Notes under the pieces: model-generated
Database searches by the model: none
The model's input: the letters and a program-made list of their open reading frames with translations, nothing else
Told to the model about the DNA's origin: nothing
Shown here: piece after piece, positions 58,922-61,163 of the stretch
How positions within the stretch are numbered: the stretch's first letter is position 1
How the letters are laid out: each line of letters begins with the position of its first letter
Program-made: the position numbers and the translations under genes
NCBI GenBank assembly: GCA_017557405.1
Contig: JAFYYV010000009.1
Span: 1 to 64,000 of the forward strand
Source of the DNA: Prevotella sp.
Lineage (GTDB): Bacteria > Bacteroidota > Bacteroidia > Bacteroidales > Bacteroidaceae
Direction of reading: 5' to 3'
Length of the DNA: 64,000 nucleotides

Positions 58922-59053
58922 ACATGTGGCACCTAAGGTGCTCAAAGATATGCTTTGACCCGCTTACATGTGGCATCTGACGCCCTCAAAGCATAGCTAT
59001 GACAAGCTCATTCCATAGCTTTGACAAAGTCATTGCATAGCTTTGACGATGCT
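58922..59053. repeat. 22-bp periodic dyad array C, mixed types
   Basis: Six units start at 58922, 58944, 58966, 58988, 59010 and 59032, each exactly 22 bp apart. Units 1 and 3 carry the ACATGTGGCAYCT core, the others the AAAGCATAGCTTT-like core, each followed by nine bases such as GACAAGCTC or GACGCCCTC. Mixing both cores in one register shows that arrays A, B and C belong to one family. Confidence 0.88.
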
Positions 59054-59237
59054 ATAAAAAGTAAAGAAAACGGAAGTATCTGGCTATCAACAACTTCCGA
59101 AAACGCTCATTTTCCGCGTATTTGCCCACGAGGAACTATTTTTCAGAAAACCAGCCTTCTCGTGGCACCAAAAATCAGAATTTTCTTTACAAAATAAGAT
59201 AGTTCCTTTTGGAACTTTAGTACTTCCAAAAGAAAAA

Positions 59238-59414: not shown

Positions 59415-59909
59415 TTATTTGAACAAGTTCTGCTTAATCATCTGCTGAACATCGGCAGGTGTATCTTTCATTTTGCAGCAATTGACAATGTACTTCACCA
59501 CCTTATCGGGCAGAGAGACTTTCTTCCAGATATCGTGGCGTTTCTTCCATGTTCCTTTGGTTGTTGTCTTGTCAATCCAGACGATGGCGTCCTTTATTTT
59601 TTCGCGTCCCATTTCTGAGTACCAACCGTCCTTGAACGTGTAGGTTCCATACTCGTGAGGCATCACCACCACCTTGCCTTCTTTGGTTAACGCAAGTTCT
59701 GCGCACGCATACTCGCCATCGGCACCATAATACTTGAACTGTGTGTAGCCGGTCGACTTGCCGCAGACGGTTTTCTTTTCACCCTCCCACTGCATCGATT
59801 CCATGTACCATGTGCCAATGAGCTCCTTGTCATCGACTTTTACGTTCTGAGCGCTTACTTGCACAGAACCCATGAGTACCAACACCATTACAAACATCAT
59901 CTTTTTCAT
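59415..59909 (-). CDS. Secreted DUF4488/lipocalin-like protein
   Basis: This 164-residue protein has a signal peptide (1-20, cut after VSA) and a beta-rich domain beginning ELIGTWYMESMQWEG, with FKYYGADGEYACAELAL in the middle, which resembles small lipocalin-like Bacteroidales proteins (DUF4488). Function unknown. The ATG at 59909 is preferred; an upstream frame extends it by 33 non-signal-like residues. Four TTTGCA repeats spaced 11 bp stand upstream of its promoter, the same pattern as before the neighbouring regulator, which also has a lipocalin-like outer domain. It is probably the regulator's target. Confidence 0.8.
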   Translation of the reverse strand: MKKMMFVMVLVLMGSVQVSAQNVKVDDKELIGTWYMESMQWEGEKKTVCGKSTGYTQFKYYGADGEYACAELALTKEGKVVVMPHEYGTYTFKDGWYSEMGREKIKDAIVWIDKTTTKGTWKKRHDIWKKVSLPDKVVKYIVNCCKMKDTPADVQQMIKQNLFK

Positions 59910-59961
59910 AAGTTTTACGTTTTTAATTAGGTTAGACATTGAGTGATTATTGTTTTCGATG

Positions 59962-59993
59962 CAAAAGTAGAGGCATTTCACCATTGTGCCAAG
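59962..59993 (-). promoter_or_regulatory. Promoter of the DUF4488-like gene
   Basis: On the minus strand TACTTTTG (59969-59962) follows CTTG (59993-59990) at 20 bp. The leader to 59909 is about 45 bases. Confidence 0.7.
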
Positions 59994-60001
59994 CTTTTGG
60001 G

Positions 60002-60040
60002 TTTGCATTTACTTTGCAAGAAGTTTGCATAGTGTTTGCA
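60002..60040 (-). promoter_or_regulatory. Four phased TTTGCA repeats (operator)
   Basis: TTTGCA lies at 60002, 60013, 60024 and 60035, exactly 11 bp apart, so on one face of the helix. On the coding strand the word is TGCAAA. The first copy begins 33 bp from the end of the -7 box. The same arrangement precedes the regulator gene. Activator binding by that regulator is inferred. Confidence 0.75.
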
Positions 60041-60046
60041 TCCCAC

Positions 60047-61072
60047 TTATGCACCTATGGAAAGAATGAATTCATCCCATTCTCTGGCACCACCTTTGCG
60101 GGCGAATACCTTTTTATAGAGTCGGCTGCGTACGGTGCTAATGGTGCTCGCGTCGCGCGCAAGAACAGCTGCGATGTCCGAGGGTGTAATCCTGAGTTTG
60201 ATAAGCAGGCATACTTGGTATTCCAGTTCAGACATGGTGTGAAGGCCTCGCAATTGGCTGCTGAAGCCAGGGTAAACTTTCCTGATTTGGCTTTCAACAT
60301 TGAGCCAGTCTTCATCTTTAAGCCTCTGTCCTGTAGCGATGCGGCGTTGCAGGGCCTGGTATTCGTCAGACGCAAAATAGTTTTCCTCCACCGACTCAAT
60401 GGCTTGCCTAACGGCTTGCGGACGCTTTTCCTGCACTTCTTGTATTTGTTGCAGTTGCAGCTGAAGACGACGTCTGGCCTTGCGGTTGTCGAAAGCAATT
60501 CTGACAATAAGCAACAACAAAATGATGACGCCGATAGTTGCCAAGATAAACCCTTGTATCACATTGGCTTGTTGGCGCTCCTTGGCGGAAAGCACATAGC
60601 TCTGCTGCTCGTCCGTATAGTCTTTCTGCACGTCAGCGGTAATAAGTTCTTTGATTTCTTCGCCCCATTCATGCGCAATATCATCAGCGCAATGCCAAGT
60701 ATACAGAATTCCGTTTCGCTGGATGATGATAGTAGTATCATCCTTCACAATCAATGGTCGTGGATTGTCATCTTCTAAATAGACATGTTCGCCACCGCCT
60801 TTATCAATCAAAGTAACTTGGCATTGAGAGCCAGGCTTAACAATCAATCCAGACTCTGTTCTGATCAACCAGCATTCATACATCACGCTGTCACCATCAT
60901 ACAGTCTAAGGATAGTACCTTTTGTCTCTGCAAACGTCTCAGAGCGTCCGGTGGGATAATCCAATAGTTTCAGCGTCCATGCCCCTTGAAGAACATGTGG
61001 TTTGTCGTTATGGCTGTTGGAAGTGCATCCGAGCATAATGCACGCAGCCATAAATATTAATATGTGTTTCAT
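60047..61072 (-). CDS. Membrane-bound HTH regulator with lipocalin-like outer domain
   Basis: This 341-residue protein has a lipobox-like start (CIMLGC, C16), an outer beta domain (about 27-128, LQGAWTLKLLDYPTG, GTILRLYDGDSVMYECWL), one membrane span (171-192), a basic coiled coil (195-220), and a C-terminal LuxR-like HTH (about 280-325, LLIKLRITPSDIAAVLARD, VRSRLYKKVF). It would sense a ligand outside and act directly on DNA inside. The outer domain resembles the adjacent secreted DUF4488-like protein (GTW/GAW start, then Y-x-C-x-L strand). Phased TTTGCA repeats stand before both genes, suggesting autoregulation. Whether C16 is really lipidated in a spanning protein is open. Confidence 0.82.
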   Translation of the reverse strand: MKHILIFMAACIMLGCTSNSHNDKPHVLQGAWTLKLLDYPTGRSETFAETKGTILRLYDGDSVMYECWLIRTESGLIVKPGSQCQVTLIDKGGGEHVYLEDDNPRPLIVKDDTTIIIQRNGILYTWHCADDIAHEWGEEIKELITADVQKDYTDEQQSYVLSAKERQQANVIQGFILATIGVIILLLLIVRIAFDNRKARRRLQLQLQQIQEVQEKRPQAVRQAIESVEENYFASDEYQALQRRIATGQRLKDEDWLNVESQIRKVYPGFSSQLRGLHTMSELEYQVCLLIKLRITPSDIAAVLARDASTISTVRSRLYKKVFARKGGAREWDEFILSIGA

Positions 61073-61095
61073 TACTTTTGCCTTGTTTTTAAACG

Positions 61096-61103
61096 CAAAA
61101 GTA
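61096..61103 (-). promoter_or_regulatory. -7 element of the regulator gene
   Basis: TACTTTTG on the minus strand, identical to the box before the DUF4488-like gene including the following C. The -33 position holds no TTG, consistent with activator dependence. Confidence 0.6.
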
Positions 61104-61135
61104 GAAAAAATAACACAAAGGGTCGGCTATTTCAC

Positions 61136-61163
61136 TTTGCATTTTGTTTGCATCCTCTTTGCA
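61136..61163 (-). promoter_or_regulatory. Three phased TTTGCA repeats (operator)
   Basis: TTTGCA lies at 61136, 61147 and 61158, exactly 11 bp apart. The first begins 33 bp from the end of the -7 box (61103), the same distance as in the other operator (59969 to 60002). Confidence 0.75.

Follow-up and report, generated by a model that had tools for sequence, protein, structure and literature searches.

We analysed a 64,000-nt stretch of contig JAFYYV010000009.1 of Prevotella sp. (assembly GCA_017557405.1), called the window below, for a pair of genes and the repeats in front of them. All genes and promoter elements in question lie on the reverse strand. The first gene (60047..61072) encodes a 341-aa protein, the regulator, to which the open reading frame (ORF) and a structural model assign a signal, a sensor, a membrane helix and a C-terminal helix–turn–helix (HTH) domain. 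The gene downstream of it (59415..59909) encodes a 164-aa secreted lipocalin-like protein, the partner, which is a putative target of the regulator.

Both genes are preceded by an array of the hexamer TGCAAA (gene strand) repeated at 11-bp steps, with four copies at the partner promoter (60002..60040) and three at the regulator promoter (61136..61163). Both arrays are conserved in relatives and are candidate operators. On the forward strand, the TTTGCA copies start at 60002, 60013, 60024 and 60035 and at 61136, 61147 and 61158, and the original prediction of four and three copies at 11-bp steps proved exact. It was equally exact in placing the first TTTGCA of each set 33 bp from the end of a TACTTTTG box (60002 − 59969 and 61136 − 61103). 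These boxes (partner, 59962..59969; regulator, 61096..61103) are of the −7 type (TAnnTTTG), which we take to be that of Bacteroidota, and, read along either gene, 38 bp separate the start of the last TGCAAA from the −7 TA downstream of it. The partner promoter has CTTGG 24–20 bp before the TA (59989..59993), a probable −33 element whose T, T and G are kept in 35, 35 and 34 of 36, whereas the regulator promoter has none and is poor at −33, as predicted. The partner start codon was set at 59909, because relatives align from there, and not at the upstream ATG within the array (ORF 59415-60008).

The pattern TTTGCAN5TTTGCA matched five times in the window, every time in these arrays (60002, 60013, 60024, 61136 and 61147). 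In 100 dinucleotide-preserving shuffles of the window it matched 0.03 times on average and once at most, and the count of five was never reached, which makes chance very unlikely, as had been claimed. When the window's genome was scanned with up to two mismatches, the pair plus −7 box was mismatch-free at these two promoters only, and the next-best sites, two in number, had 2 mismatches each; the circuit looks local and confined to two promoters. The bare TTTGCA pair was rejected as a motif, with 14 of its 19 genome matches lying elsewhere. As 11 of these 14 stray pairs were TTTGCA just before a −7-like TAnnTTTGCA, the bare pair is a poor motif and the pair with its −7 spacing a good one. Three exact copies alone (found in 14 of 100 genomes) were also rejected, several being unrelated short tandem repeats without such a gene pair.

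Conservation and distribution of the arrays

Orthologous loci, at about 48–71% identity, came from two sources: a search of 398 genomes of the genus with the regulator as query, and a scan of named genomes (24 loci, mostly of rumen and gut metagenome-assembled genomes assigned to Prevotella, Prevotellaceae, Bacteroidaceae or Bacteroidales, together with Prevotella communis). The resulting set of 54 comprised the window and 53 further loci (L077-L129), with some of the same DNA fetched twice and one paralogue of 34% identity (L129). Allowing up to one mismatch per copy, a phased pair was present upstream of the regulator at 51 of the 54 loci (the others being L125, L126 and L129) and upstream of 47 of the 52 partners found. 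The five partners without a phased pair (L094, L104, L123, L125 and L126) had no −7 box there either; that of L094, a second copy of the gene, lacks an array, and L090 and L129 had no partner match. The original prediction had staked itself on the repeats recurring at orthologous pairs, and the arrays and their spacing were kept at both promoters.

After removal of near-copies, a hexamer lay 37–39 bp from the −7 TA in 40 of 42 regulator promoters (27 at 38 bp) and exactly 38 bp from it in 36 of 41 partner promoters. The second copy of L094 forms one partner row of this alignment, at 39 bp, and L085, in which the array is present, was left out by a length limit. The aligned partner promoters conserve the hexamers, A-rich letters in the last spacer and immediately 3′ of the array, CTTGG, AAAG 8–5 bp before the TA, and the −7 box; most else varies. 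Most regulator promoters are without CTTGG, a minority having one (e.g., L099, L105, L118). What they do keep is TTTG, 16 bp upstream of the TA (61116..61119 in the window; T, T, T and G in 24, 19, 22 and 19 of 27). This inner TTTG, inverted relative to the last TGCAAA and two turns (22 bp) away from it, is not kept by the partner promoters. The lipocalin-like gene is duplicated in G066 (L057).

We scanned 396 Prevotella genomes for a strict motif consisting of two exact TGCAAA copies, a gap of 32–33 bp and TANNTTTG, and found it in 60 of them. It was present in 43 of the 46 genomes with the regulator (E ≤ 3.5e-74) versus 17 of the 350 without it (Fisher's test, 6.5e-40); the test treats the 398- and 396-genome draws as the same set, as their handles indicate. 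The reversed-pattern control gave 0 in every row. Ten of the 17 motif-positive genomes without the regulator (G018, G065, G292, G354, G357, G359, G366, G368, G390 and G411) have the motif beside or within about 2 kb of another HTH-family gene, mostly of TPR types of 520–565 aa, and the remaining seven (G041, G045, G062, G208, G260, G266 and G383) have no HTH-family gene nearby in the fetched stretches. Three genomes have the regulator without the strict motif: G362, in which the arrays have one mismatch or a 40-bp gap, and G263 and G276, in which the recognition helix is altered. G396 (C25, C28; L220) has four strict sites, and one of these, C25, precedes a gene for a 317-aa product that matches Porph_ging.

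Regulator, partner and recognition helix

The regulator begins with a lipoprotein-type signal whose lipobox Cys16 is kept in 19 of 20 members. In the structural model, this is followed by a lipocalin-like sensor domain (about residues 24–131, expected to be periplasmic), a membrane helix continuing into a coiled coil (helix 163–215) and a LuxR-like HTH (helices 253–338), the arrangement of which appears to resemble VpsT (3kln, LuxR/CsgD-type) in a structure comparison. The lipobox, a hydrophobic stretch read by eye and the model all fit the earlier claim that the regulator spans the membrane, and we infer a protein with a periplasmic sensor, a membrane span and a cytoplasmic C-terminal HTH. 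The partner is homologous to the sensor domain, and both are predicted antiparallel barrels with a fold like that of the Bacteroides lipocalin-like proteins 4qrl, 5byp and 4gzv (PF13648).

Neither Pfam nor NCBIfam assigned the regulator or the partner to a firm family. The NCBIfam match to BT3442_fam had an E-value of 0.013 at best, and Lipocalin_4 of Pfam was matched by two of 19 partners (best E 0.0017). The partner had been labelled DUF4488-like, but Pfam at E ≤ 1 gave no match of that name for it or 18 relatives, the presence of such a model in the library being unchecked, and "lipocalin-like" fits better. At the same threshold the window regulator had no match to GerE, which is not among the 25 families listed of the 62 matched by the 20 members; a receiver domain was found neither among the Pfam matches listed nor in the model. 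PDB sequence searches with the regulator and partner profiles returned nothing credible.

Most orthologues have TISTVRSRL, or a close variant of it, as their recognition helix. The helix is TISSLRKRL or TISTMRKRL in one clade (L174, L175, L179/L125/L126 and L209), which forms a single branch of a tree computed from the entire protein, with the recognition helix left in. The partner promoter of G276 (L175) has TGCGAG copies at 11-bp steps with CGCAAG at one position, that of G263 (L209) likewise has TGCGAG copies, the last 38 bp before TAATTTCG, and the regulator promoter of G255 (L179) has TGCGAAccaaaTGTGAA twice, ending 38 bp before TACTTTTG; at L174 no site was seen. The geometry is constant while the operator letters change with the helix, from TGCAAA to TGCGAG. 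A one-residue code between Lys at position 316 and base 4 was not significant (A4 in 0/4 versus 8/12, p-value 0.077).

The wider HTH family

Among HTH proteins of <320 aa, which are mostly short and encoded before NfeD-like and SPFH/Band-7 genes (by Pfam for L167 and by similar neighbours elsewhere), a TGCAAA-like hexamer lay exactly 38 bp from 25 of 46 nearby −7 boxes and, for 21 boxes, another lay at 48 bp, a 10-bp step, near-copies not being removed from this count. Short membrane HTH proteins with 10-bp steps and the last copy mostly at 38 bp are seen at L003, L167, L169, L171 and most of L225-L244.

For TPR-type regulators, only loci fetched by protein similarity were used, 45 in number, with 32 regulators and 43 distinct −7 boxes between them. 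They were searched for hexamers of any sequence that recur at 10 or 11 bp and have their last copy at 38 or 39 bp. Such a repeat was found in 11 of 43 promoters, compared to a mean of 0.88 and a largest value of 5 over 1000 single-letter shuffles, and the repeats peaked at offsets 36–40. Within the 11, the 10-bp repeats of L010 and L014 are weak, and those of L251 and L261 consist of the AT-rich TTCAAT. In the DUF6377-type regulators, taken as a control family, the repeat was found in 0 of 60 promoters (1 of 79 with wider flanks). The hexamers of the TPR types vary by protein (TGTACA, TGTAGA, TGTCAA, TGTGAA, TGAGAA, TGCGAA/TGAGAA, TTCAAT and TGCAAA); this list comes from a set with repeats in 15 of 49 promoters that includes loci chosen for TGCAAA sites, which the 11 of 43 excludes. 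Outside the genus, 17 regulators found via BT3442_fam in the order had a repeat in 1 of 23 promoters (shuffle mean 0.5), and the geometry is therefore shown for this genus only. A possible case beyond Prevotella is the TPR regulator of L329, which has TGTCCTattatTGTCCT; the last copy there lies 39 bp upstream of a −7 box.

At L212, L213, L215, L216 and L224, TGCAAA arrays lie upstream of the gene that follows a TPR-HTH regulator, 39 bp from its −7 box. By eye, a terminator-type hairpin (CTCCGGTAG...CTATCGGAGTTTTT, less perfect in L215) stands between array and box, and the terminator of the regulator seems to be embedded in the promoter of the next gene. Genes after other family regulators encode thioredoxin-like or Porph_ging products (L161, L212, L213 and L215), a hint at envelope functions. 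Elsewhere in the window, at about 58990-59055, a non-coding, imperfect direct repeat of CATAGCTTTGAC was seen by eye downstream of a 995-aa gene.

It is an evenly balanced question whether one operator grammar is common to a large Prevotella family of HTH regulators that are anchored in the membrane and whose sensors are lipocalin-like, TPR or minimal. Under this grammar, tandem copies of a clade-specific hexamer would follow one another at 11 bp, or at 10 bp in the branch linked to NfeD/SPFH, and the final copy would stand 38–39 bp upstream of a −7 TA, either that of the regulator gene itself or that of a following gene; the recognition helix would determine the letters, and contact with the polymerase would fix the geometry. 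In the window's branch, the sensor would be a paralogue of the secreted protein under its control, giving a built-in ligand-buffering feedback.

Proposed circuit, alternatives and significance

The best explanation, and in our judgement a likely one, is that the regulator is an autoregulated one-component membrane activator that binds as a multimer and controls its own gene and that of the partner. Judged from sequence, the arrays are probably bound by this regulator; that it activates both genes is somewhat less certain. It would sit in the inner membrane, with the lipid-anchored lipocalin-like domain in the periplasm and the LuxR-like HTH in the cytoplasm, and a signal from the periplasm, probably a small ligand that the lipocalin-like domain binds, would pass via the membrane helix to the HTH. 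Several HTH domains could align on one DNA face, one per TGCAAA half-site at 11-bp steps, and the bound multimer, just upstream of the −33 region, would touch RNA polymerase and aid the use of the −7 box. Activation is suggested by the position of the arrays and by the missing −33 box in the window's regulator promoter. The presence of this box at the partner and its absence at the window's regulator promoter may give different basal levels. The targets would be the regulator itself and the next gene, encoding the secreted homologue of its sensor, and this product could bind the same ligand, titrate the signal and feed back on the sensor.

The originally predicted one-component membrane circuit is supported by arrays that track the regulator, adjoin HTH-family genes and change with the recognition helix. 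The last of these points has two limits: the altered helix and operator belong to one clade and hence to one event, and the wider helix–operator correlation across 16 classes is weak. The arrays could instead be sites of another regulator, for example an OmpR/PhoB-type response regulator, with the membrane protein as a target and not the binder. Six-base sites at 11-bp direct steps are a classical arrangement in that family, and proximity by itself is no proof of binding, but the arrays follow the HTH family, also at loci with TPR sensors, and change with the recognition helix; a strict motif at only two promoters of the window's genome would moreover be odd for a general response regulator. 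We consider this explanation improbable. It is also unlikely that the membrane protein, when bound to the arrays, represses or has a mixed auto-regulatory role: the inverted TTTG between −33 and −7 of the regulator promoters could be a repressing half-site, but the partner promoters do not keep this inner site, and the array of either promoter is located 5′ of the −33 region.

That the arrays act with no specific protein, as phased A-tracts bending the DNA, is suggested by half-sites ending in AAA at a step of about one helix turn. An AAA run is short for bending, however, the TGCGAG arrays have the same geometry with a hexamer that contains no A-run, and other family members use TGTACA, TGTAGA and TGAGAA, which makes this reading very unlikely. 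Chance, or shared ancestry without selection, draws on the fact that the relatives are all of one genus or close kin. It is scarcely credible given the shuffled windows and given that hexamers and distances are constant and most other upstream positions variable.

Among known systems, regulators of the LuxR/NarL/CsgD type (VpsT, 3kln) have a C-terminal domain whose arrangement appears similar to that of the window regulator, which differs from them in having no GerE among the Pfam matches listed, in direct arrays in place of inverted pairs and in its membrane anchor. ToxR/CadC/TcpP-type membrane one-component activators use OmpR-type winged helices, unlike the HTH found here, which appears to resemble VpsT and occurs in another phylum and at another promoter type. 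The sensor and partner share the fold of the Bacteroides lipocalin-like proteins, and we know of none of these, with no literature search aimed at the point, that serves as the sensor of a membrane HTH regulator. The nearest described kind is that of SusR, which shares the membrane plan with the window regulator by description. SusR-like regulators (SusR BT3705) are described in a 2013 study as unique to Bacteroidetes and poorly studied, with a periplasmic sensor and a C-terminal cytoplasmic HTH, activating sugar-use operons from predicted direct-repeat operators (PMC3878776; Ravcheev et al. 2013). Their boxes, as given there, are two predicted sites 67 or 77 bp apart; the window arrays, with 11-bp steps and 38 bp to the −7 box, do not have this distance between direct repeats. 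Within the retrieved portions of open-licence papers, a literature search gave no report of such arrays or of an operator rule. BT_3442 is described only as a TPR protein in the portion of PMC2954219 covered, and a term search of PMC12596196 found none of the operator terms looked for, except "membrane-spanning" once, in the reference list.

Gut and rumen Bacteroidota commonly have membrane one-component regulators, and a fixed geometry of hexamer, 11-bp step and 38 bp to the −7 box would allow target prediction for many such regulators. The change from TGCAAA to TGCGAG with the helix is a natural specificity switch for testing recognition, and the geometry offers a clue to the way in which an activator engages with the unusual promoter type of Bacteroidota. 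The circuit would be a compact part for commensals, leading from an outside signal to a promoter. If the shared grammar is true, it would let the targets of many uncharacterised regulators be read from sequence.
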